In this document: one piece after another, positions 3,494 to 44,805 of the stretch
How positions within the stretch are numbered: position 1 is the stretch's first letter
Layout of the letters: each line of letters starts with the position of its first letter
IMG/VR virus record: IMGVR_UViG_3300036901_000105
Coordinates: 1-46,078 of that record
Strand: one strand, 5' to 3'
DNA from: a virus
DNA: 46,078 nucleotides
Program-made: the position numbers and the translations under genes
Notes under the pieces: generated by a model
The model's database searches: none
What the model was told of the DNA's origin: nothing
What the model saw: the letters and a program-made list of their open reading frames with translations, nothing else

Positions 3494-4957
3494 ATGTCTA
3501 ACTTCGTACAAACGGAACGCCTCGACCAGAACCGCATCCGCATCTTATCCGACCTAGAGATCGTCCTGTTCGCCAACGAACAGGTGCCGGTGGATCGTGC
3601 GTCCCTCCAAGAAACCCTCACCATCTCCGAGATCAAGGCGACCATCGCCGCCCTGAATCGCCTCCGCTTCTTTGGTGATTATGACGCCGCGATCAATCGT
3701 GCCGTGCTCACGCCGGATTTCCATAAAGGCTCCGGCATACCCATCGGCACAGTGCTCGATGCGGACGGCCTCGTGCTGCCGCAATGCGTGGGAACTGATG
3801 TGTCCTGTGGCATGAGGCTCATCACCACCGACATGACGCGAGAGGATTTCGCGCGCTGCGTCAATCTCGAAAATATCCTGAGACATGCTTTTTTCGAAGG
3901 CGGCAGGGATATTCCGTTCAGCGAGGCAGGCCGTCTCGGAATGCTGCGCGAAGGCGTCATCGGTCTCAAACCATTGAATGTCGGCATCTGGAACCATATC
4001 GATCAATCACAGATGTTCAACGAACTCGACCATACGCATCAATACGGCAGTTGGCCCACCAAGGATTTGTGGATGTTCGCCGACTATGTGAAAGGGAGCG
4101 GGGGTGTCAGCCGAGATTCCGCCATCGGATCAATCGGTGGTGGCAACCATTTTGATGAAATTCAGTACGTCGAGGAATGCCTCGATAAACCGACCTGTCA
4201 GGAATGGGGCATTCGCGAAGGCATGATCACGGTCATGGCGCATACCGGCTCGGTCGGTCTGGGCAGCATGGTTGGTGATCATTTCGTGCAACTGGCGCGT
4301 AAACTGCATCCGACATCGCTCAAGATGCCGAAGCACGCCTACCATCCGCTACCGACTGTGGGGCCTTTGGCGGCGCATGGCGATGCCTATTTGTCGGCGA
4401 TGGGACTGGCGGCGAACTTCGCCACTGTCAATCGTCTGATGATCGGCGCGGTGACCCTGCGATGCCTGTCCGACGCCTTGGGACGCGCGGTGCATGGACG
4501 GCTGGTCTATGACGCGCCGCATAACCTGGTCTGGTCCAAAGGCCAGCATCATCTGCATCGGAAGGGAGCCACACCGGCTGATTGCGATCCTGATGACGCG
4601 GTGTTTCCGAACGGCCATCCGGTCATCGTGCCGGGGTCCATGGGGGACGCCAGCTACATCCTGCGCGGGCGTGGCAGCCTCGCCAGTCTTTGCTCGGCAC
4701 CGCATGGCGCGGGTCGTTTGATGGCGCGTGGCGAGGCGCGCAAGGCGTCGCCGGATGAGATGCAGTTGATCCGGGTGGTGACCAAAATCGATCTGAATAA
4801 AGTTCGGCGTGACATCGCGGATGAATATCGCAGGGATTTGATGGAGGAAGCGCCGAGTCAGTACAAACCCGTGTTGCCGGTGATTGAAACCGTGGCGAAT
4901 GCTGGTATAGCTTCGCCAGTGGCTCGGTTGCGACCACTGTTGACGGTGAAAGGATGA
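3494..4957 (+). CDS. rtcB: RNA-splicing ligase RtcB
   Basis: A full-length 487-residue RtcB, the GTP- and Mn-dependent ligase that joins RNA 2',3'-cyclic-phosphate or 3'-phosphate ends to 5'-OH ends. The metal and catalytic residues are visible: D102 and C105 (TDVSCGM), H219 (GGGNHFDEI), H250 (AHTGSVGLG), H343 (DAPHNLVW), the HRKGATPA loop near 355-362, and the guanylylated histidine H404 in SAPHGAGR. Nothing essential appears missing. It heads a rightward cassette with a small ORF, a Nudix hydrolase and KptA. In a phage the obvious job is repairing tRNA or rRNA cut by host toxins or anticodon nucleases, the role T4 gives to Pnkp and Rnl1; that is inference. Confidence 0.95.
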   Translation: MSNFVQTERLDQNRIRILSDLEIVLFANEQVPVDRASLQETLTISEIKATIAALNRLRFFGDYDAAINRAVLTPDFHKGSGIPIGTVLDADGLVLPQCVGTDVSCGMRLITTDMTREDFARCVNLENILRHAFFEGGRDIPFSEAGRLGMLREGVIGLKPLNVGIWNHIDQSQMFNELDHTHQYGSWPTKDLWMFADYVKGSGGVSRDSAIGSIGGGNHFDEIQYVEECLDKPTCQEWGIREGMITVMAHTGSVGLGSMVGDHFVQLARKLHPTSLKMPKHAYHPLPTVGPLAAHGDAYLSAMGLAANFATVNRLMIGAVTLRCLSDALGRAVHGRLVYDAPHNLVWSKGQHHLHRKGATPADCDPDDAVFPNGHPVIVPGSMGDASYILRGRGSLASLCSAPHGAGRLMARGEARKASPDEMQLIRVVTKIDLNKVRRDIADEYRRDLMEEAPSQYKPVLPVIETVANAGIASPVARLRPLLTVKG

Positions 4958-6235: not shown

Positions 6236-6515
6236 GATACTCGGCAAGGCTTATCATAAGAAAATGGGTCAGCCAGTTCGCGGTGATTCCACGGCTGAAA
6301 CCGCCCGTCAGTTGGAATTGGTTGGACTGGTCTCAATCGAGGACATCGATTATGGCGGGGCACGAGAAAGAGAGAAATATCGCCGGAAAGGTAATCGCCT
6401 TCAAGGCGGAAAACATCAGGGTGGTATTCTCGTGAAAGTGACCAGTGCCGGTCGCGAAGCCTGGATCAACGCGGGTTTGATCGCGGCTGGTCGGCAACCA
6501 AAGTGTCTGGATTAA
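6186..6515 (+). CDS. Unknown protein ending the RNA-repair cassette
   Basis: A 109-residue basic protein starting 50 bases inside kptA (a second ATG follows immediately). The N-terminal half (TFSAKEAEILGKAYHKKMG, then AETARQLELVGLV) reads like a small winged-helix or helical domain, followed by a lysine- and arginine-rich middle. A role in RNA or DNA binding would fit but is unproven. Its last four bases overlap the convergent repeat-protein gene. Confidence 0.5.
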   Translation: MMNRKPIIHTFSAKEAEILGKAYHKKMGQPVRGDSTAETARQLELVGLVSIEDIDYGGAREREKYRRKGNRLQGGKHQGGILVKVTSAGREAWINAGLIAAGRQPKCLD

Positions 6516-9500
6516 GGTGCCAGGAAGAAGAACAATCTGGTCTGATCATCCTTGGTGTAGGATCGTGCGATGTCAATCGAACTTCCGGTCTCGATGATAG
6601 AGGCGATGAATTCCGAGGCGACAATGCTCACGAGGTCGGATGACGCACCGGTTTCGATGATGGAGGCGACAAATCTTGATGCCGCCTCACTGACCGTGTC
6701 GGTCGCCGCGCCGTTTTCCGACACGGTAGCATGAAAGCCCGATGGCGTGGCATCGCTCGTGTCGGATGTCGAGCCAGTCTCCGCCGCCCCACCGAGATAA
6801 GTTGAGATCGTGACCTCGACTGTATCGCTGGCCGCACCGGTCTCGATGTTGAACACATAGCCAAAATCAAAGGTATCAGGAGCATCGACCGCTGAACCGC
6901 TTTCGGTGATGACGGAGTTATAGATCGAGCCAGGCGCGTCCACGTCATCGTTGGCCAATGATGCGAATTCAAAGGTGGCCTTGTAAATGATGTCGTTGCC
7001 GTCCACGGCGTCAGAGGCCGCGCCACTTTCCGTGATCGCCTCCTGGCTGAAATCGACATCGCTGACCGTATCACTCGCGGTGCCCATTTCGGTGATGGCA
7101 GCAACATAGGTTGAAGCTGTTTCGTTGACAGAAACACTGGCCGATCCGCTTTCAGTGATGACACCCACATAAGTCGACGCGATGAAATTGACGCCATCGC
7201 TCGCGGAACCCGACTCGGTAATCGTCTCCTGACTCGAATCGACATCACTGACCGTATCGCTCGCCACACCGGCTTCAATGATCATCCCGACATAAGTTGA
7301 AGCAGCGAAATTCACCGTGTCATTCGCGGAACCCGACTCGGTGATCGTCTCCTGACTCGAATCGATATCGCTGACCGCGTCGCTCGCGGAACCAGCTTCG
7401 GTGATGACAGCAACATAGGACGAGGTCGTTTCGTTTACGGAATCAGACGCCGAACCAGATTCGACAATGGCTTCTTCACTCACGTCGATGACGCTGATGG
7501 TATCCTTAGCTGAGCCAGTCTCGATAATCATGCCAACGAAGGTCGAAGCTGTTTCGCTTACGGTGTCATTCGCTGATCCAACTTCTTGTGCTATTCCGGT
7601 ATAGACCGATGATATCGTAATTACGGAGTCGGATGCCGAACCGGTTTCTGTCACGACTTCGGAATAAACCGAATCAAATTCGTTCGCCGAATCCGACGCT
7701 GAACCGGACTCGGTTATCGCGCCCCCATAGACCGATGATGTTTCGCCCACCGCGTCGGATGCCGAACCGACTTCGGCCACGGCACTAACATAGGTCGAAT
7801 TCGTCTCATTGACGGTGTCGGTCGCGTTCGCGCCGCCTTGTTCGGATATTCCTTCGATGCTGAAATTCACGGCGCTGATGGTATCGCTCGCCGAACCAAT
7901 CTCGCTGATCGCTCCAACATACGTCGATGCGATGAAATTGACCGCATCACTAGACGAGCCAGACTCTGAATTTGCTCCAACATAAATTGAAACGGTGAAA
8001 TTCATCGAATCCGTTGCTGATCCGGTTTCTGCCACGACTTCAGTGAAATTATCTGTTGTATCCGATGCGAAACCAAATTCCGCAACGACCACCAGGTTGA
8101 CGTTTGAATCAACATTGTCACTCGTAGAACCATTTTCTACGATGGCCTGTGTGTTGACATCTCCCGCGCTGATCGCATCGCTCGCCGAACCAATCTCGCT
8201 GATCGCTCCAACATACGTCGATGCGATGAAATTGACCGCGTCACTCGCGGAGCCGGATTCTGATGTTATACCAACGTACGTTGAGGTGGTGAAATTGACG
8301 GCATCCGATGAGGAACCGGTCTCAGCGATTGTCTCCTGGCTGTAATCCACATTACTGACCGTGTCGTTCGCGGAACCAGCTTCGGTGAGGGCACCGACAT
8401 AGATCGAAGTTATTTCGTTGATGGAATCACTCGTGGAACCGGTTTCAGAAATGGCACCCATATAGGTGGAAGCTGTTTCGTTGACGGAATCACTGGCCGA
8501 TCCGGTTTCAGGGTTGGCTCCAACATAGGTTGAGGTGTTGAAATTGACCGCATCCGATGCCGACCCGGATTCGGTGATGACCTGAGCATTCGTATCAGCG
8601 CCATTGACTGCATCGCTGGCCGATCCGGTCTCGCTTATCGCCGCGCCATAAACCGAATTGGTCTCGTTCACGACATCCGACGCGGACCCGGCCTCGGTGA
8701 TGGTCTCCTGACTGGAATCGACATCGCTTACCGTATCGCTCGCGAAACCAGATTCCGCGATGGCACCAACATAGGTTGAATTCGCGAAATCGGCAGAGTC
8801 CGATGTTGATCCTGTTTCAGAAATGGCACCCACATAGATGGAAGCCGTTTCATTCATTGTATCGCTTGCTGAACCGGATTCGGTGATGGTCTCCTGACTG
8901 GAATCGACATCGCTTACCGTATCGCTTGCGGAACCAGATTCCGCGATGGCACCAACATAGGTTGAATTCGCGAAGTTGGCTGTATCACTCACCGATCCGC
9001 TTTCGGTGATCGCTCCAACATAGGTTGAAGCGCTGAAATTGTCAGCGTCCGCCGCTGAACCAGATTCCACGATGATCTGGATTGTCGTATCGACGGCGCT
9101 GATCGTATCGCTCGCGGAGCCGGTCTCCGAAATAACAGACAAGAAGGTCGATGCCGTTTCGCTCGCGGTATCGCTCGCGGAGCCGGTCTCCGAAATAACA
9201 GACAAGAAGGTCGATGCTGCTTCGGTGACAGTATCAGCCGCCGCGCCTGTTTCAGAAATTATCCCGACATAGGTTGACGTGGTGAAATTTACCGCATCAC
9301 TGGCTGAACCGGCTTCTACGATGAAGCCATTATAGCTGGAATTGCTTATACTGATCGAATCGCTGGCGGAACCAGATTCGGTGATCGCGCCAACGTAGGT
9401 TGAAGAAGCGAAATTGACCGCGTCACTCGCTGATCCGCTTTCGGTGATCGCTCCAACATAGGTCGAATTGGTTTCATTGACGACATCAGATGCTGAGCCA

Positions 9501-10996
9501 GATTCAGTTATGGTCTCCAGGCTGACATCGACAACACCGACCGTATCGCTTGCTGAACCTGATTCAGTTATGGTCTCCACGCTGGAGTCAACATCACTGA
9601 CAGCGTCGCTCGCTGAGCCACTTTCGCTGACCGCGCCAACATAGGTCGAAATCGTGAAATTAACCGCGTCACTGGCCGAACCGGATTCCGCGATGTTTTG
9701 ATAGTTCGCGTCTGATGAATTGCTGCTATCGCTGGCTGAGCCACTTTCGGTGATGGTGCCAGCCCAGGTCGATGTCGTGACATTGTCCGCGTCATTGGAC
9801 GAGCCACTTTCGGCGATGATGCCAGCCCAGGTCGAGGGCGCGAAATTTGACGCGTCAGTGGCTGAACCAGATTCGGTGATGACTCCGACATAAATTGATG
9901 TCGTTTCATTGACCGTGGCACTGGCCGAACCAGTTTCGGCGATGGCTCCAACATATGTTGAAGTTGTTTCATTGACCGTATCGATGGCCGATCCACTTTC
10001 CGTGACGGTAGTAGCCCAGGTTCCGCTCGCATTGACCGCGTCGCTGGCCGTTCCACTTTCGGTGATGGCCCCGACATAGGTCGAGGTCGTGAAATTAGCC
10101 GCATCGCTGGCCGATCCAGATACCGTGATGGTTCCAGCCCAGGTTGACGTGGTGACATTTGGCGTATCGCTGGCCGATCCAGATTCCGTGATGGCCGCGC
10201 CCTTCACATAGGAGTAGTTGACGCTATCAGTATCAGTTGATGTCGTGCCAGGCTTGAAAACCGCCATATTGGCGATGAAATCGTACTGGTTCGCCGTGGT
10301 GCTGAGCGTCCACATCGGGTTGGTCGCGATGGCGGAGGATTGCACGAGATACGCAAGCGCCGAACCACAGAAACTGCCGTAGGTCGATAAGTCCTGATTG
10401 GTGATGATGAAGCCAATATTCACCGAGGCGGTGGCACCAGTACCACCAGAGAAGTTGCCCTCATTGGTGATGATCAGGCAGTCGTTCTGTGATGGCGTCA
10501 GCGATCCCGGCTGAAGGGTTCCGCTACCGGTAGTGCCTGAATAAACACCGCTCGTCTGATCGAGTGGAGATGTGGTGGCGACGCCACTGAACGCGGCGAC
10601 CTGTTGACTACCATATCCTTGGTTCATCGCGCATGTGAAGGTATGACCGGTGCCAACCGTTGGGTTGGCGACATAGAATAAGTACTCCGCCTGATTTTGA
10701 CTGGCACCATTCGGCGGGTTGGCGTATCTGACCGCCAACGTCCAGGTGTTGCCATAAGAGTCAGATGGAACTGGAGCGGTTTCATTGATTGCGATGTACT
10801 GGCCAATTGACATCACCAGCAAGGTCGCGCCCGTGGTGTTTATCGAGGTGCTGGTGGTACTGGTGCTAGTGTTGCCGTTCCAGTCGACGTTCGAGACCAG
10901 CGCGATCTTACTCGCCTTGGTCTCGATGATCACGCCAAAGCCGGTTGGATAACCGCCGACCGTGGAAGAACTTAGGGGTTGACCGCCGAACATCAT
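6512..10996 (-). CDS. Giant repeat protein, probable tail fibre or virion adhesin (1494 residues)
   Basis: The first ~250 residues are rich in Gly, Ser, Thr and aromatics (GNTWTLAVRYANPP, AFSGVATTSPLDQTSGVYSG) and look like a jelly-roll or lectin-like beta domain. The remaining ~1220 residues are about 60 tandem copies of a 20-21-residue unit with consensus I-x-E-S-G-S-A-S-D-x-V-N-x-x-x-S-T-Y-V-G-A, in two interleaved flavours (STYVGA and VDSSQET endings). The last residues (TRLFFFLAP) break the pattern. Low-charge, Ser/Thr-rich repeats of this kind fit an extended beta-structured stalk. It lies 54 bases downstream of a collagen-like gene in the same direction, so both are probably host-contact or virion-surface proteins. 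No catalytic motif is seen. Confidence 0.75.
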   Translation of the reverse strand: MMFGGQPLSSSTVGGYPTGFGVIIETKASKIALVSNVDWNGNTSTSTTSTSINTTGATLLVMSIGQYIAINETAPVPSDSYGNTWTLAVRYANPPNGASQNQAEYLFYVANPTVGTGHTFTCAMNQGYGSQQVAAFSGVATTSPLDQTSGVYSGTTGSGTLQPGSLTPSQNDCLIITNEGNFSGGTGATASVNIGFIITNQDLSTYGSFCGSALAYLVQSSAIATNPMWTLSTTANQYDFIANMAVFKPGTTSTDTDSVNYSYVKGAAITESGSASDTPNVTTSTWAGTITVSGSASDAANFTTSTYVGAITESGTASDAVNASGTWATTVTESGSAIDTVNETTSTYVGAIAETGSASATVNETTSIYVGVITESGSATDASNFAPSTWAGIIAESGSSNDADNVTTSTWAGTITESGSASDSSNSSDANYQNIAESGSASDAVNFTISTYVGAVSESGSASDAVSDVDSSVETITESGSASDTVGVVDVSLETITESGSASDVVNETNSTYVGAITESGSASDAVNFASSTYVGAITESGSASDSISISNSSYNGFIVEAGSASDAVNFTTSTYVGIISETGAAADTVTEAASTFLSVISETGSASDTASETASTFLSVISETGSASDTISAVDTTIQIIVESGSAADADNFSASTYVGAITESGSVSDTANFANSTYVGAIAESGSASDTVSDVDSSQETITESGSASDTMNETASIYVGAISETGSTSDSADFANSTYVGAIAESGFASDTVSDVDSSQETITEAGSASDVVNETNSVYGAAISETGSASDAVNGADTNAQVITESGSASDAVNFNTSTYVGANPETGSASDSVNETASTYMGAISETGSTSDSINEITSIYVGALTEAGSANDTVSNVDYSQETIAETGSSSDAVNFTTSTYVGITSESGSASDAVNFIASTYVGAISEIGSASDAISAGDVNTQAIVENGSTSDNVDSNVNLVVVAEFGFASDTTDNFTEVVAETGSATDSMNFTVSIYVGANSESGSSSDAVNFIASTYVGAISEIGSASDTISAVNFSIEGISEQGGANATDTVNETNSTYVSAVAEVGSASDAVGETSSVYGGAITESGSASDSANEFDSVYSEVVTETGSASDSVITISSVYTGIAQEVGSANDTVSETASTFVGMIIETGSAKDTISVIDVSEEAIVESGSASDSVNETTSSYVAVITEAGSASDAVSDIDSSQETITESGSANDTVNFAASTYVGMIIEAGVASDTVSDVDSSQETITESGSASDGVNFIASTYVGVITESGSASVSVNETASTYVAAITEMGTASDTVSDVDFSQEAITESGAASDAVDGNDIIYKATFEFASLANDDVDAPGSIYNSVITESGSAVDAPDTFDFGYVFNIETGAASDTVEVTISTYLGGAAETGSTSDTSDATPSGFHATVSENGAATDTVSEAASRFVASIIETGASSDLVSIVASEFIASIIETGSSIDIARSYTKDDQTRLFFFLAP
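6580..10195 (-). repeat. Long tandem array of ~60/63-bp coding repeats
   Basis: About 60 degenerate copies of a 60- or 63-bp unit, in frame in the giant repeat gene. Some stretches are nearly identical at DNA level, for instance around 8690-8790 and 8880-8970, and around 9110-9150 and 9170-9210, which suggests recent duplication or conversion. Boundaries are approximate. Confidence 0.85.
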
Positions 10997-11050: not shown

Positions 11051-11935
11051 TCAGAAACCGTATGACGTTGCTAACAAGCACCACTTGGTGATATTAGTGC
11101 AGTACTGAAACAATGCGTAATCGATCAGACCAGCCGATGTCGACGCGACGAATTCGATGACCGTGTCGCCGAATTGCACGCTACCATCAAATGAAACCGT
11201 GAAGTTGCCTCCCGTTCCCTGAATGAATTCAAGCAGGGCTATTTGACCATTGTTTCCGGCACTCAGTGTGAATGTCGTGGAATGGTTCAATGTGATACTG
11301 TACTTTCCCGCCGTCATCGGCAGGGTTTGTGTGGAAGATGAAACCGTCACGGAAGTGACGGTTGGTGTGCTGCCATAGGCTCCGAGCGGGCCGGTCAAGC
11401 CTATCGGCCCGGTTGGTCCTGTCGGTCCCGTAACGGTTGAGGTCGCTCCTGTCGCTCCGGTCGCTCCTGTCGCTCCGGTCGCTCCGGTCGCGAAAGCATT
11501 TCCCGGTATGCCCTGAGGACCGGTGACGCCCACGGCACCTGTTGGGCCGGTTGGCCCTGGCACGAGCGAGGCGGGTCCGGTGTATCCGGTGGGTCCAATC
11601 GGGCCGGTCGGCCCTGGCACATACGAGGCTGGTCCGGTGTATCCGGTGGGTCCAATCGGGCCAGTGATCGTGGAGACGGGTCCTTGAGGCCCGGTGGGTC
11701 CGGTGTAGCCGGTGGGTCCGGTGTAACCCGTCGCTCCGGTCGCTGACGCCGAACCTGCGGGACCTCTGGGTCCGGTCGGGCCGGTGGACCCCGTCGATCC
11801 AGTGGGTCCTGTCGGATTGGAACTGATTATTTCAGTCGATGTGCCACCTGGTGCTGGCGCAATACTCGTTGAACCGCCGCCTGGTATGACTTGTCCGGTT
11901 CCTGGAATGATAATAATCTGATTAATTGATGGCAT
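11051..11935 (-). CDS. Collagen-like virion or fibre protein
   Basis: 294 residues. A short N-terminal segment ([20 protein letters not shown]) leads into a collagen-type region of G-x-y triplets (~residues 42-185: [23 protein letters not shown] and similar, with several GAT triplets) and then a C-terminal ~100-residue beta domain ([20 protein letters not shown]) of the kind that trimerises such stalks. Phage collagen-like proteins usually form fibres or needles. The gene lies directly upstream of the giant repeat gene on the same strand. A TATAAATA box sits only five bases before the ATG. Confidence 0.8.
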
Positions 11936-11940
11936 GCTGA

Positions 11941-11948
11941 TATTTATA
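11941..11948 (-). promoter_or_regulatory. Late-promoter-like box, leftward
   Basis: TATAAATA on the minus strand, identical to the T4 late-promoter core, immediately before the collagen-like gene. Transcription would start near the ATG, making the mRNA almost leaderless. It forms an inverted pair with the box at 12016-12023 (shared 12-mer TATAAATATCAG). Confidence 0.5.
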
Positions 11949-12015
11949 AAAATCGTGATATTCAGCCAATGCTTCGAAGTGGTAACATGGAACCGACAAC
12001 GTCTATTACAAAGTG

Positions 12016-12023
12016 TATAAATA
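12016..12023 (+). promoter_or_regulatory. Late-promoter-like box, rightward
   Basis: TATAAATA on the plus strand with no -35 partner, as in T4-type late promoters. It lies 64 bases before the preferred start of the gene at 12088 and diverges from the box at 11941. Confidence 0.6.
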
Positions 12024-12087
12024 TCAGAATATGAGCAACCGAGAAAACATGATGGATGACTCGTTACTAACTATGAGGGAATATATT

Positions 12088-12336
12088 ATGGTCACAGAGG
12101 GTTTACTACAAACTGAACATGACCACTCAGAGATAGCAATTGAGAAAGCAACCTATCAGACCCCTCAATATGATGTGCGTCTGAGAGAAGAAATCAGCGA
12201 TGTCGTCTTCAAGTTACGTGCCTTCATGGAGTCGTCTGAAGGAGAACTCGGTTTAGGTATCGAAATGGGAATGCAGCGCGCCGCCGATATGATCGAAACC
12301 GTTCTTGACCGTTGCGTTCAGCAACAGGGAGAATGA
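12088..12336 (+). CDS. Unknown small acidic protein
   Basis: 82 residues from ATG 12088, chosen because GAGGG lies seven to eight bases upstream; in-frame starts further up (GTG 12013, ATG 12031, 12049) lack such a site and overlap the promoter. The product is acidic and helical (EISDVVFKLRAFMES, RAADMIETVLDRC). Function unknown. It opens the rightward structural run 12-14.5 kb. Confidence 0.5.
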   Translation: MVTEGLLQTEHDHSEIAIEKATYQTPQYDVRLREEISDVVFKLRAFMESSEGELGLGIEMGMQRAADMIETVLDRCVQQQGE

Positions 12337-12339
12337 CTT

Positions 12340-12609
12340 TTGGACACGAAACTTCGCGGAATTATAGATGAACTGCTTGATTATGCGCCGACCAAGGACA
12401 AGGAACTGTTCATAGAAAGTCGTGGCCAACAGGTCATAGCGAGCGCGGTGAATTTGATTCGTCTGATAAGGGAATCGTTCGACGATGAAACGGCGAATGA
12501 TCTGTCGAAACGACTGGTCAGGGCCATAGCGAGCGAAGATCAGGAGAAATTCACAAGGCGTCTACGTCAGTTGCGCGAGACAGTAAAGAGCAAATCCGAT
12601 GAAAAATGA
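12340..12609 (+). CDS. Conserved T4-like phage protein, unknown
   Basis: 89 residues with a TTG start, a GGGAG site upstream and three bases after the previous stop. The core (QQVIASAVNLIRLIRESF, then RLVRAIASEDQEKFTRRLRQL) resembles a small helical protein I recall from T4-like cyanophages near head genes, but I cannot assign a gp number. A prohead-core or assembly role is a guess from context. Confidence 0.55.
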   Translation: MDTKLRGIIDELLDYAPTKDKELFIESRGQQVIASAVNLIRLIRESFDDETANDLSKRLVRAIASEDQEKFTRRLRQLRETVKSKSDEK

Positions 12610-13771
12610 AATTTCAGAAAAAGGCGCATTTAACACGCTTGGCACCAGCATCAAGAGTGGTCTCGCCAAGAAACGAGATGCCGCTCTTGGAGATTTTGGT
12701 GGCGCAAAAGAACGCCTCGGCCTGCGGGTCGCCGCCGATCAGAACATGAAAACCTGGGTGAACTGGATCACGCGACAACGCTATGGTGGCGAAAAGGTTG
12801 AAGGCAACGCCGATGATCTGCGCCGGTTCATCAAGCAGACATATGGTGATTATGCTCTGCAACAGGTCGAGCCAGCGATCCAACGAGTCTCCCAACAGAC
12901 GACCCAGGCACCACCACAACAAATCCCTGCACCCGCCGCACCGGCTGCGGTCGCCAGTACTGCCACACCGGCCATAAGCGCTCCTGCGGCGAGCAACGCG
13001 GCTCCGGCTGCTGCTGCCACACCGGCATCAACTCCGGCTGCCGCCCCTGTCGCTGCGGCTCCAAAAGCACGGGCATCAAGGGCAAAGCCCGTGCCTGTCG
13101 CCCCTGCTAATCCGGAGGTTCCAGATTGGCTCGCCAAGCAGAGAAATGCCACGAGCACAGCCAATCCTCCGCCCATGGACATTCCGCCGACCCCCCGAGA
13201 ACGAATGAACCCCCCACCCGCGAAGGCGCGGGGACGGTCTCTGCCATCCTCGAACCAATACCCGCAGCGTTACACGCCAACCGCGCCAGTGGAAAGCACC
13301 CATGTCAAAGGCAATCTCATCGAAGACGCCCTGCCAAGATCAGCAATCGACATGGTGTTGAAGCAACTCGCAATCGCTCAGATGAATCATCGTGATTCGC
13401 AACAGCCGGGTCAGCAAATCCCGACACCGGGCAGTCAGACACAAGCGAACCCGACAGGTCAGGCACAGATAAGTCAGACACAGCAAACGCAAGGAACCCC
13501 AACAGGTCAGGCGCAGCCAAATCAGGCCGCTAATGGTCAGCAACAGCGCCAGCAATCCGCACCTATCAACGTTTCTCAGATATTGAGCGCACAGGTATCC
13601 GTAGCCGGGTTGAGACGAACCAACGCCAATTTGTCTCCAGTTGATAAAGGTCGTATCGATGACGCTTTGAGCAATGGCTCAACTTCATTGGAAGAACTTC
13701 TGAATCAGCTACCAGAATTGAGGGGAGCAACGGTTGTTGGGCTATTGAAAGCACTGGAACATAGCAACTAA
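12599..13771 (+). CDS. Pro/Ala- and Gln-rich protein, probable structural or scaffold
   Basis: 390 residues. The N-terminal ~95 residues look folded (KTWVNWITRQRYGGEKV, DLRRFIKQTYGDYALQ). A long Pro/Ala linker (~105-170) and a Gln/Pro/Thr-rich linker (~270-325) flank a short helical piece, and a C-terminal ~60-residue helical domain ends the protein (SPVDKGRIDDALSNGSTSLE). Multi-domain architecture with disordered linkers is common in phage scaffolds and virion-internal proteins. It starts inside the previous gene by 11 bases, and its TAA is immediately followed by the next ATG. Confidence 0.55.
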   Translation: MKNEISEKGAFNTLGTSIKSGLAKKRDAALGDFGGAKERLGLRVAADQNMKTWVNWITRQRYGGEKVEGNADDLRRFIKQTYGDYALQQVEPAIQRVSQQTTQAPPQQIPAPAAPAAVASTATPAISAPAASNAAPAAAATPASTPAAAPVAAAPKARASRAKPVPVAPANPEVPDWLAKQRNATSTANPPPMDIPPTPRERMNPPPAKARGRSLPSSNQYPQRYTPTAPVESTHVKGNLIEDALPRSAIDMVLKQLAIAQMNHRDSQQPGQQIPTPGSQTQANPTGQAQISQTQQTQGTPTGQAQPNQAANGQQQRQQSAPINVSQILSAQVSVAGLRRTNANLSPVDKGRIDDALSNGSTSLEELLNQLPELRGATVVGLLKALEHSN

Positions 13772-34861: not shown

Positions 34862-35206
34862 TTCAACACATCCTTTGTGGGTTGTGATCCTGTTTGGATC
34901 GCTTTGATGTTTCGATGATACTCTGAAGATTTTCAACTCCATCAAAATAATCCGGGCTGATAGACGACTGATGAGTGTTTTATCTCCCCATTATTACGAA
35001 AAATTTAGAAAATTGTGTGAGTTTGACATTTCATGCGACTCAGAATAGTGTCACCGAAGCCGTAGACGAACGTGTATCCCCGACTCATCAGTGTGTATGG
35101 TAGCCGTCGTAAAAGGCGGCTACCAATCCTTTCGTAATCGGCTGATTTCCGCTTGACAGCCAATATTGGTTCGAGTAGAGGCCGCGCTCAAATCGAGGTG
35201 AGTGTT
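34862..35206. other. Intergenic region with two TTGACA boxes and a strong hairpin
   Basis: No convincing gene over ~345 bases. It holds two plus-strand promoter candidates: TTGACA at 35023 with TAGTGT 17 bases on, and TTGACA at 35153 with TAGAGG 17 bases on. Between them GGTAGCCG / CGGCTACC (about 35098-35124) forms a stable hairpin without a clear T-tail. A short regulatory RNA or a structured leader is possible. Confidence 0.45.
35153..35181 (+). promoter_or_regulatory. Promoter of the 35.2 kb gene
   Basis: TTGACA (35153-35158), a 17-base spacer, TAGAGG (35176-35181). The perfect -35 overlaps a TTG that would otherwise be read as the first codon, so the true start must be further downstream. 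Confidence 0.5.
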
Positions 35207-36571
35207 GTGAGCGACCAGGTTTTAAGAACCCTCTATGATGGTTTGTCGGGCCGTCCGATGCCGGAAACGGTAGCGGCGACCTTGCTTGACCTTGATGTCA
35301 TCAGTCGGGATTCCGTGCTCAGCCGCAAGGTTGGCGCGGCGGCTGGCGGGCGCAAACACTCGCATAGCTTCATGCGCGCCGAATGGTTCGAGCCCGTAGG
35401 AGCGCAAGCACAGATCACCACCGCCCTCGATATTTTCGCGGATTACATCGCGCGTACCCCATCGCCTGACGTGATCACGGCGACTGAAACGAATCCGGCG
35501 CGGATCGAGCGGTTCATCGCCTATTTGTCGCGTTACATCGTCAAGGAAGTCGGCCAGAACGATTTCAAGAACGACCGTGACAATCGGGAGATGCGTCGTC
35601 AGCAGAACGTTGGGAAGAGTTTTCCCGCCGTGATGGGCAACCACGCTTATAACAAGCGGTTCCGGTTCCTCGCACGGTTCGAGGCGAAACTCAAGACCTA
35701 CACCAAGGAAATGCGACTGCTGTCATATCGGATCGTCGGTAAAGGCGGTCTGATCGATGATATCAAGTTTGAGGAGTTTCTCGCGTCGCCCTCGGCTGCC
35801 GCGTTCGTGGCCTATTACGTGGCGCGCAAGAATCGTCGCAGCGTGTTCACCAATGAGAGTCAGTCGCGCCCGTTCGATACGGTGGCGAAGGCTTTGCTTG
35901 ACAAATGCTTTGACGATAAAGGCACCGATTGGTCCTTGATCGCCAGAGTGTATCCGGAGTCGGATGTCCTCAAGCGTCTTACGGATCAGACCAAAGGCAA
36001 ATTGCTCGGCAGTTGGTTGAATGTGCTCGTGTCGCTGGCCGGTGATCTCGAAACCGCGTGGCGTGTTGGTAGCATCAATCTGGAAACGATGATCGTGCAT
36101 CGTGGCAACGATTCCTCGACCTGGAATCTGGTGGCCCAGGCATGGAACACCTCTCGTACCGCGTGGATGGCGATGCTCGCCGACACCGGCCAGGAAGGGT
36201 TCCTGATCGACTGCTGCCCTGGCAAGGTGCTGCGCCTGATGGCCGGTGACGTTGCTTATTGGCATCGTGCTACAGGTGGTGACGTGCATCCGGATACCCA
36301 TGTGTGGAAGGCCCTGCCGAAACCGTGGGAGGTGTTGCGTGGCGAACGTCATTGCTCGCTCAACACGGTGATGGGTGCCTGCGCCAGAGCGGGACTGGAC
36401 CCGTTCACGTCGGGTTGGGTGGAGGGTCGGGTGGCGAAAAATCCCGTGCCGTTCACGCCGACACCGGAACTGGTTTATGGTGTCGAGGTCGCGTCCCCAT
36501 ATTTCGCCTTGATTTTGCGGAAGATGGGTGTATTCTCTGGTAAGGGTATCAAGGTACCCCATGATATGTAG
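35207..36571 (+). CDS. Unknown large protein upstream of two tRNAs
   Basis: 454 residues from GTG 35207, chosen because GAGGTGA precedes it and because earlier starts (35153, 35198) fall in or near the promoter. Largely helical and basic (RNRMRR-type patches such as NREMRRQQNVG, MGNHAYNKRFRFLARFE). Conserved-looking stretches include GSWLNVLVSLAGDLETAW and MAGDVAYWHRATGGDVH. I cannot place it in a family; the length and basic mid-region could suit a nucleic-acid or virion protein. Its TAG stop forms the first three bases of the following tRNA, so the two are on one transcript. Confidence 0.6.
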   Translation: MSDQVLRTLYDGLSGRPMPETVAATLLDLDVISRDSVLSRKVGAAAGGRKHSHSFMRAEWFEPVGAQAQITTALDIFADYIARTPSPDVITATETNPARIERFIAYLSRYIVKEVGQNDFKNDRDNREMRRQQNVGKSFPAVMGNHAYNKRFRFLARFEAKLKTYTKEMRLLSYRIVGKGGLIDDIKFEEFLASPSAAAFVAYYVARKNRRSVFTNESQSRPFDTVAKALLDKCFDDKGTDWSLIARVYPESDVLKRLTDQTKGKLLGSWLNVLVSLAGDLETAWRVGSINLETMIVHRGNDSSTWNLVAQAWNTSRTAWMAMLADTGQEGFLIDCCPGKVLRLMAGDVAYWHRATGGDVHPDTHVWKALPKPWEVLRGERHCSLNTVMGACARAGLDPFTSGWVEGRVAKNPVPFTPTPELVYGVEVASPYFALILRKMGVFSGKGIKVPHDM

Positions 36572-36641
36572 GGTGTAGCTCAGTGGTAGAGCATTTGGCT
36601 CTTGGGTCCGAATGGACGGAGGTTCGAGCCCTCTCACCCTG
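36569..36641 (+). tRNA. tRNA, probably Gln (TTG), with an enlarged anticodon arm
   Basis: Acceptor TAGGGTG pairs with CACCCTG (36635-36641; one U-G pair), D-arm GCTC/GAGC, T-arm GGAGG/CCTCT with loop TTCGAGC. The anticodon arm is two bases too long: TTTGG, nine bases CTCTTGGGT, CCGAA. The central triplet is TTG (Gln), in keeping with U at position 1. Reading directly after the first T would give CTT (Lys). No CCA is encoded. It overlaps the upstream stop codon. Confidence 0.75.
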
Positions 36642-36659
36642 CCCTCATTTCGTTGATGT

Positions 36660-36736
36660 GGCGACGTAGCTCAGTGGTAGAGCGGTTGGCTCCATAATCC
36701 GACTGGACGGAGGTTCGAGCCCTCTCGTCGCCCCCA
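36660..36736 (+). tRNA. tRNA, probably Met (CAT), with an enlarged anticodon arm
   Basis: Acceptor GGCGACG/CGTCGCC (all Watson-Crick), D-arm GCTC/GAGC, T-arm identical to the preceding tRNA, CCA encoded at 36734-36736. The acceptor and D-arm resemble elongator tRNA-Met. The anticodon arm is GTTGG, nine bases CTCCATAAT, CCGAC, again two bases longer than normal. Central triplet CAT; an alternative reading is CCA (Trp). Confidence 0.75.
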
Positions 36737-40826: not shown

Positions 40827-41069
40827 ATGGCGGAAATCGATGATCGCGTCGGAGTCATTCTCAGATACAAAGTTGATGAACTGAATGTTAGATTTCTTGG
40901 CTACGGCGTCTACCAGGGAAAGTTTAAGACCCCGGCGTACCCATCGTTCAGGGACATCTTCCGAAGAACACTGAACGAAACTCTAAACAACGTTAGCACT
41001 ATCGTCACTTGGTACAGGGGGTCGGATTCGAACCGACGAAATGAGCGCCTTATGAGGACGCGGCCTTAA
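40827..41069 (+). CDS. Probably truncated small gene running into an antisense tRNA
   Basis: 80 codons with an excellent GGAGGTAA site. Residues 1-~50 (MAEIDDRVGVILRYKVDELN, then FLGYGVYQGKF) look like the start of a known small phage-protein type with a G-Y-G-V-Y-x-G motif that normally continues to a conserved end. Here residues from ~62 onward (TWYRGSDSNRR) are simply the reverse complement of the tRNA at 41010-41088, a classic artefact. The gene therefore seems cut by tRNA acquisition. Confidence 0.45.
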   Translation: MAEIDDRVGVILRYKVDELNVRFLGYGVYQGKFKTPAYPSFRDIFRRTLNETLNNVSTIVTWYRGSDSNRRNERLMRTRP

Positions 41070-41088
41070 ACCACTTGGCGACCCCTGC
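41010..41088 (-). tRNA. tRNA with CAT anticodon (Met/Ile2-like), CCA encoded
   Basis: On the minus strand: acceptor GCAGGGG/CCCCTGT (one G-U pair), three-base-pair D stem GCC/GGC with a long loop, anticodon arm GCGTC-CTCATAA-GGCGC, seven-base variable region, T-arm GTCGG-TTCGAAT-CCGAC, discriminator A and CCA. The anticodon CAT could serve Met or, after lysidine modification, Ile. The D-arm looks more like those of Gln, Ser or Leu tRNAs, so identity is uncertain. Confidence 0.8.
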
Positions 41089-43824: not shown

Positions 43825-43964
43825 ATTTTAACTTTGGTGCATTCCTCCTGGCGGTCGTGCCATTCCTCGGATTTCACTTTTGGCTCCGTTGGCGATTGGA
43901 TCAAGACAGAGCCAGAGATTTGAAGAAGACAAAATTTAAGGAATCCGATGACTCAGATAATTGA
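43818..43964 (+). CDS. Tiny membrane protein (48 residues)
   Basis: ATG 43818 inside the end of the preceding ORF. One N-terminal membrane segment (FGAFLLAVVPFLGFHFWL) and a highly charged tail (RWRLDQDRARDLKKTKFKES). Overlaps folD by 17 bases. The pair of nested tiny membrane proteins between pyrB and folD is unexplained. Confidence 0.5.
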   Translation: MVNFNFGAFLLAVVPFLGFHFWLRWRLDQDRARDLKKTKFKESDDSDN

Positions 43965-44805
43965 CGGCAAGAAGATCGCCGAGGCGATTTGTCGCGACAT
44001 TGCCGAACAGGTGAAGACTCGCCACCGTGACCCGTATCTCGCCGTGATCATCGTTGGAAACGATCCGGCCAGCGAGATTTATGTTCGGCGCAAGGAACGG
44101 GTAGCCACTCAAATTGGCATCACCACGGACATCAATCGGTTCCCCTCAGATATCACGCAGGATGCTCTTGAGTCGTTCATCTGGGAACTCAATTCCAATC
44201 CATTGGTCGATGGCATCCTCATTCAGTTGCCATTGCCCAAGCACATCAATCGCAACTTCATCGTCGAGCAGATCGATCCCGAGAAGGACGTGGATGGGTT
44301 CCATCCGCTGAACGTGGGCCGGTTCACGGCTGGCGATCCGATCCACACGCCATGCACGCCCAAAGGCATCATGAAGCTCCTGGACGCCGCAGGAGCGGTC
44401 CTGAAGGGAACGGAAGCCCTGGTCATAGGAACCGGTGCCGTTGGTCGTCCAACCGCCCTGCTGCTCAGCCAGGCCGGAGCGACCGTGACGATGGCGAACA
44501 GTCAGACCCGCGATCTCGACGACCTTTGTTGGCGATCCGGCATCATCGTCGCGGCGGCGGGTTGTCCGAACCTCGTCAGGGGCAACCATCTCTGGGACGA
44601 AGGTCAAACCACCATCATCGATGTCGGGATCAATCGTCTCGCCGATGGCAGCATTGTCGGTGATGTCGCATTTGATGAATGCGTGGGGATCGTCAGAGCG
44701 ATCACACCGGTCCCCGGTGGTGTCGGGCCGATGACGATTGCGTGTCTGATGGAGAACACGCTGGAGTGCTATTCACGATTACGGATTTTGAAAAGGAACA
44801 TTTGA
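43948..44805 (+). CDS. folD: Methylenetetrahydrofolate dehydrogenase/cyclohydrolase FolD
   Basis: 285 residues (E. coli 288). A bifunctional enzyme interconverting 5,10-methylene-, methenyl- and 10-formyl-tetrahydrofolate with NADP. Catalytic residues: Y45 and K49 (IYVRRKERV), Q93 (GILIQLPLP) and D116 (DPEKDVDGFHP). The nucleotide-binding loop reads VIGTGAVGRPTA (usually a GRSxxVGxP-like form), and the signature TPVPGGVGPMT is intact. It supplies one-carbon units for thymidylate and purine synthesis. It lies in a nucleotide-metabolism operon with pyrB. Confidence 0.95.
   Translation: MTQIIDGKKIAEAICRDIAEQVKTRHRDPYLAVIIVGNDPASEIYVRRKERVATQIGITTDINRFPSDITQDALESFIWELNSNPLVDGILIQLPLPKHINRNFIVEQIDPEKDVDGFHPLNVGRFTAGDPIHTPCTPKGIMKLLDAAGAVLKGTEALVIGTGAVGRPTALLLSQAGATVTMANSQTRDLDDLCWRSGIIVAAAGCPNLVRGNHLWDEGQTTIIDVGINRLADGSIVGDVAFDECVGIVRAITPVPGGVGPMTIACLMENTLECYSRLRILKRNI

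Follow-up and report, generated by a model that had tools for sequence, protein, structure and literature searches.

Two tRNA-like RNAs with enlarged anticodon loops, encoded side by side in a viral DNA, were found to belong to a two-part module in which such RNAs are encoded next to the gene of a dedicated protein. The existence of this module is almost certain, and its unit is the protein together with the tRNA mimics rather than two phage tRNAs made nuclease-proof. Tentatively, we propose that it may represent an undescribed class of ribonucleoproteins of bacteria, plasmids and phages, in which a new protein family would be combined with tRNA mimics whose fast-diversifying loops serve as baits for, sensors of or guides to factors that act on anticodon loops. 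No protein family or RNA family describing the module was found, nor any paper in a search of the openly licensed literature; the module appears to be new, an earlier description elsewhere being possible. Annotation tools file the RNAs as odd or undetermined tRNAs (tRNA-??? in ARAGORN), and plasmid-borne homologues of the protein carry the label "hypothetical protein"; a conserved two-part system of six bacterial phyla, plasmids and phages thus seems to have gone unnoticed. As the module ties a tRNA oddity to a specific protein, and does so in culturable bacteria (Kordia algicida, Lacipirellula limnantheis and Ktedonobacter racemifer are cultured carriers), it offers a handle on the question of why such strange tRNAs occur in phages and mobile elements.

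Two tRNA-like RNAs with nine-base anticodon loops

The stretch of DNA analysed (the window) is a linear viral record of 46,078 bases, whose gene content includes an RtcB ligase, ribonucleotide reductase subunits, HNH endonucleases and a tail fibre gene. The features of the module are listed below, the two loops having been assigned by direct reading and by comparison within the family.

35153..36571, + strand: partner protein gene, an ORF of 472 codons (~450 amino acids) whose homologues adjoin RNAs across the family
36569..36642, + strand: tRNA-like RNA 1, called Gln (TTG) by ARAGORN; C at position 73, G at position -1, CCA not encoded
36599..36607, + strand: nine-base loop of RNA 1, CTCTTGGGT; constant CTC followed by a "GG"-type variable segment
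36660..36733, + strand: tRNA-like RNA 2, called Met (CAT) by ARAGORN; C at position 73, followed by CCA at 36734-36736
36690..36698, + strand: nine-base loop of RNA 2, CTCCATAAT; constant CTC followed by an "A"-type variable segment

ARAGORN delimited these RNAs as tRNA-Gln(ttg) at 36569-36644 and tRNA-Met(cat) at 36660-36736, and the Rfam tRNA covariance model (RF00005) matched both far above its threshold of 29 bits (49.1 bits for RNA 1 and 53.9 bits for RNA 2). Both have the cloverleaf with seven of seven acceptor pairs, a D arm of four pairs, a T arm of five pairs, a variable loop of five bases and the conserved bases of the D-loop/T-loop elbow. The anticodon arms, TTTGG-CTCTTGGGT-CCGAA in RNA 1 and GTTGG-CTCCATAAT-CCGAC in RNA 2, count 19 bases by direct reading where 17 are normal. 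The original prediction had described two tRNAs with 19-base anticodon arms and otherwise normal arms, and ARAGORN, RF00005 and the reading of the bases all bear this description out. The two arms differ at pair 27-43 by a compensatory change, with T-A in RNA 1 and G-C in RNA 2, and the segments that follow CTC are TTGGGT (GG type) and CATAAT (A type). Folded as single sequences, the window RNAs did not come out as complete cloverleaves, a failure that is frequent when energy models are applied to tRNAs. The first base of RNA 1 is also the first base of the stop codon (TAG) of the partner gene, an overlap which suggests that protein and RNAs are co-transcribed in the window.

An RNA family spanning six bacterial phyla

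Neither exact DNA patterns taken from the window nor queries with the single protein found close relatives. A relaxed RNA pattern, fixing mainly the spacing from the D stem to the variable loop, yielded 52 viral stretches; among many unrelated tRNAs with nine-base loops, three loci (L055, L047 and L034) had the nine-base loop architecture beginning with CTC, together with a TGGAC variable loop. A pattern built from these three then returned seven viral contigs and 37 bacterial loci. The resulting family spans viral contigs and six bacterial phyla, with RNA bodies strikingly similar from phylum to phylum and with one to four RNAs per locus; at least two are present in 27 of 53 loci, making the adjacency seen in the window a typical arrangement. 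In every member the anticodon arm reads GG-CTC-(variable)-CC. Although the search pattern itself required CTC in one RNA per locus, the triplet is also kept where the pattern did not select for it, in the tandem partners and in the remote loci L106, L120, L122 and L123. The family has no Rfam match other than tRNA. With the family covariance model (R1), RNA 1 and RNA 2 scored 85.1 and 87.7 bits, respectively. A third tRNA of the window (41010-41088, - strand), with anticodon CAT, a seven-base loop and an encoded CCA, reached 26 bits and is not a family member.

The 49 viral loci found by loop spacing alone lack the partner protein and are a separate matter. Nine-base loops in 19-base arms, with neither partner protein nor GG-CTC-CC arm, occur in L028, L056, L015, L012, L024 and L014, and likewise in L031, L043, L050, L020/L058, L011 and L018, apparently as a separate and common oddity of phage tRNAs. 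Several separate viral contigs (L010, L019, L042 and L057) share, in addition, an Asn-like tRNA that has the arm ACTGCTTCGTTAGAACGGT, a GTT anticodon and a mismatched stem.

A constant fold with a hypervariable loop

When 30 RNAs of the family were aligned, all four helices were kept, with standard pairs in 99.7% of pair cells; 14 pairs had changed on both sides, and the covariation score was 0.684 compared with 0.19 after shuffling. Such covariation rules out random damage as the origin of the unusual arms, and the original prediction was right that the architecture common to both RNAs is a selected one. The alternative drawing of the window loops by ARAGORN, with seven bases and a C.T mismatch, was rejected, as the family shows almost no pairing between the first and last bases of the loop: G ends the loop in only 2 of 78 relatives. 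The loop is therefore truly enlarged, in agreement with the nine-base reading given in the original prediction.

Loop length is not fixed: the 78 distinct RNAs have loops of eight (53 RNAs), seven (12), nine (11) or six bases (2), so that 66 of them depart from the seven-base norm. An RNA from the remote locus L106 has a loop of 14 bases, 11 of them after CTC, where the usual variable stretch is 4-6 bases long. The CTC, the D arm, the T arm for the most part and the two G-C pairs nearest the loop in the anticodon stem are nearly invariant, and hypervariability is found in the acceptor stem, which changes freely, and in the segment after CTC. Kordia, Aquimarina and Tenacibaculum possess RNAs with identical 64-base bodies and the loops CTCGATTA, CTCTTGGA and CTCTAGGA, respectively, and the same pattern was observed in two Planobispora species and in Planctomycetota. 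Bodies can be identical between genera and yet carry loops that differ at up to four of five variable positions. Differences per site amounted to 0.47 in the loop versus 0.059 in the body, a ratio inflated by the choice of pairs with similar bodies; the cases of identical bodies are striking on their own, apart from this ratio. Many loci with two RNAs, the window included, combine one GG-type with one A-type loop. The viral locus L118 contains four module RNAs, among them two with seven-base loops, CTCATAA and CTCGGGA, that resemble normal Met and Pro loops, respectively.

Linkage of the protein gene to the RNAs

Linkage was assessed from both sides. On the RNA side, an all-against-all comparison of the ORFs in loci found by their RNA revealed a homologue of the partner protein in 44 of 45 sources, window counted, the sole exception (L089) having its RNA at the very end of the contig. 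On the protein side, plasmid, genome and viral matches were collected and loci already known by their RNA were left out; in all 14 further loci (L103-L106, L110-L112, L118, L120-L123, L126 and L128, with the same RNAs in L122 and L126) a tRNA-like RNA, detected with ARAGORN or the family covariance model, directly adjoined the gene. The association of the protein with the RNAs is therefore solid. A weak protein match in L113, over 43 aligned positions and without an RNA, was set aside as due to chance.

In the usual layout the gene is followed by the RNAs on the same strand, no more than a few dozen bases away, and the RNAs lie upstream of the gene in L047, L055 and L062 among others. No conserved operon partner beyond the core protein was found among the neighbouring genes, nor are the neighbours consistently defence genes; near three loci, a type IV restriction enzyme, a YhcG nuclease and an nSTAND NTPase were noted as anecdotal cases. 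The most divergent module, that of L106 with its 14-base loop, is located on an 815-kb plasmid of Miltoncostaea, with genes for two peptidyl-tRNA hydrolases and for a protein of an RNA ligase family in its vicinity (8337-8789, 10153-10884, 11857-12906).

The partner protein and its distribution

The TTG start at 35153 is uncertain, similarity within the family beginning at about residue 20. The family alignment revealed the invariant motifs MIVxRGNDSSTWN, AWNxxR, GKVxRLMA, LPxPWxV and PTPELVxGV. A confident AlphaFold2 model of the protein (pLDDT 84.5, pTM 0.84) is almost entirely helical. No match to the protein was found in Pfam, NCBIfam, PHROGs, PADLOC or the sequences of the PDB; the PADLOC search was negative for six family members at E <= 0.1, and hmmscan against Pfam detected no TROVE domain in five members at the same threshold. 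Foldseek returned no PDB structure below E 0.001 for the model, and the best VIA score (Z = 5.8) is uninformative for a helical protein; fold matches were no better with the C-terminal part alone. The ring fold of Ro60 did not appear among the Foldseek and VIA matches, an absence from the list that does not exclude the fold. No enzyme motif was identified in the protein, and no toxin fold was present among its structure matches. The predicted fold is matched by two giant-virus proteins, A0A3G4ZSE3 from Edafosvirus and A0A5K0U9D9 from Yasminevirus (Foldseek E 2e-14 and 1e-12, respectively), which are uncharacterised and whose likeness to the partner protein is one of predicted fold.

The protein is a single-copy one where found, and it is rare, being present in about 0.5-1.5% of sampled genomes. 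Counting the queried genomes, it was detected in 2 of 199 genomes from the family of Aquimarina, in 4 of 296 from the class of Herbidospora (a fifth, weak match having been set aside), and in 2 of 199 and 1 of 190 genomes of two further samples. The module occurs on chromosomes, plasmids and phages, most members having been found in bacterial genomes. In the tree of the protein, viral members branch at four or more positions, which indicates that the module has crossed between phages and bacteria at least twice.

Acceptor end and decoding

The 78 RNAs use all four letters as discriminator base, and N73 can pair with the base at -1 in 82% compared with 41% after shuffling. The acceptor stem is extended by at least three pairs in 25 of 77 RNAs, against a shuffled mean of 6.4 and a maximum of 15, and in none of 234 other tRNAs from the loci collected. 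Moreover, the RNAs of L122, which recur in L126, lack the GG of the D loop and the TTC of the T loop and keep GGCTC...CC. Unfixed loop length, a spread discriminator base, an N73 that can often pair and the loss of the elbow in L122 all make decoding improbable, and as far as sequence can indicate it the family RNAs probably have a non-decoding role. The window's RNAs, taken alone, may have a translational role: the acceptor of RNA 1 is extended by one pair, that between N73 and -1, and that of RNA 2 by none, and the encoded CCA of RNA 2 fits an ordinary charged tRNA and counts against the module reading.

A possible function as bait or sensor

Our preferred explanation, which on sequence grounds we regard as possible and put forward tentatively, is that of an RNA-protein module whose RNAs could act as baits or sensors for enzymes attacking anticodon loops. 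An all-alpha protein of ~450 amino acids and its RNAs, encoded together and apparently co-transcribed, would assemble into a ribonucleoprotein; the RNA has the tRNA fold. The constant GG-CTC...CC of the anticodon arm would be the likely handle for the protein, putting the variable bases after CTC on display. Anticodon-like loops, often of one GG and one A type per locus, would then be offered to enzymes that cut or modify such loops, and the protein would protect the RNA, sense the outcome or act on it. A phage might carry the module within a tRNA-centred conflict with its host or with rival elements. The bait is preferred because only the displayed loop diversifies, because its anticodon-like character is kept and because the module behaves as a mobile accessory system; the evidence for bait function itself consists of the loop variability and the anticodon-like loops. 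Against it count the little or no acceptor extension in the window, the seven-base loops of some members and the lack of consistent defence neighbours. If the bait or sensor reading is true, the module would add a new layer to conflict centred on tRNA cleavage.

The main rivals are a guide ribonucleoprotein and a toxin-antitoxin system. As a guide, the segment after CTC would pair with a short target RNA sequence (a codon or a further anticodon loop, for example), on which the protein would then act. A constant handle followed by a short hypervariable segment is what such a guide would have, the segment varies in length up to the 11 bases of L106, and the protein is uncharacterised; however, the usual 4-6 variable bases leave little for specific pairing, and the GG-type and A-type patterns recur instead of varying freely, so we consider this function rather unlikely. 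As a toxin-antitoxin system, the protein would be a toxin held inactive by the tRNA-like RNAs, or the reverse. The module is a compact and self-contained pair, protein and RNA always occur together, and their distribution is patchy, in single copy, over chromosomes, plasmids and phages. Nevertheless, such a system by itself leaves the diversification of loops on fixed bodies unexplained, and with no toxin fold found it also appears fairly unlikely.

Recoding, with enlarged loops reading four- or five-base codons or causing frameshifts and the protein serving in charging or maturation, is quite unlikely. An expanded-loop frameshift suppressor tRNA, SufB2, is known (PMC7803779). Its anticodon loop has one extra base, as in the eight-base majority of the family (53 of 78), which in this respect resembles +1 suppressor tRNAs; the tRNA fold is intact, the base after the candidate triplet is a purine in 69-72% of the RNAs, and 4 of the 78 have an encoded CCA. 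SufB2 arose by mutation of a normal tRNA, whereas the family has loops of 6-14 bases, a constant CTC, an often-paired position 73 and a partner protein. Furthermore, a discriminator of four letters and a hypervariable acceptor stem provide no single charging identity, and the pairing of N73, the lost elbow of L122 and the range of loop lengths also speak against recoding.

The original prediction had viewed the window RNAs as phage tRNAs that could decode abnormally or, through their altered loops, escape host anticodon nucleases. Nuclease-evading loop mutations have been published for mycobacteriophage tRNAs (van den Berg et al. 2023, PMC10264068), and both cases involve phage tRNA genes, the window being from a phage, with an anticodon loop that departs from that of the host. 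However, that text speaks of loop mutations, the words "insertion" and "loop length" being absent from it, whereas the family described here has a changed loop length and a dedicated protein adjoining, and lies mostly in bacterial genomes. As the RNAs are a protein-linked family common outside phages, with loops of 6-9 bases (14 once), some of them of seven, that differ on identical bodies, with acceptor pairing past position 72 and with no elbow in one lineage, neither abnormal decoding nor resistance was supported, and evasion is very unlikely. Anticodon nucleases may still be involved, the RNAs serving as bait or sensor and not as replacement tRNAs, and a conflict that targets tRNA, to which the original prediction pointed, is a sensible place to look.

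In bacteria, the Ro60 protein Rsr is encoded beside YrlA, a tRNA-like noncoding Y RNA; bacterial Y RNAs contain tRNA-like modules, RtcB is often encoded near Ro60 genes, and the window has an RtcB gene, but a particle of this kind, in which a tRNA-like RNA regulates a ring-shaped RNA-binding protein, is highly improbable, as the family protein has no TROVE match by Pfam in five members, the family RNA is a full cloverleaf matching only tRNA in Rfam, and RtcB is 30 kb off.

Other genes in the window

The RtcB-type tRNA-splicing/repair ligase is encoded at 3494-4957 (Pfam PF01139, E 2.5e-87), 30 kb from the module. An ORF of 1,494 amino acids without a PHROG match (6512-10996, - strand) adjoins the tail fibre gene and possibly encodes a large structural protein. 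A phage-encoded tetrahydrofolate dehydrogenase/cyclohydrolase was identified at 43948-44805 (phrog_7320, E 1e-90).
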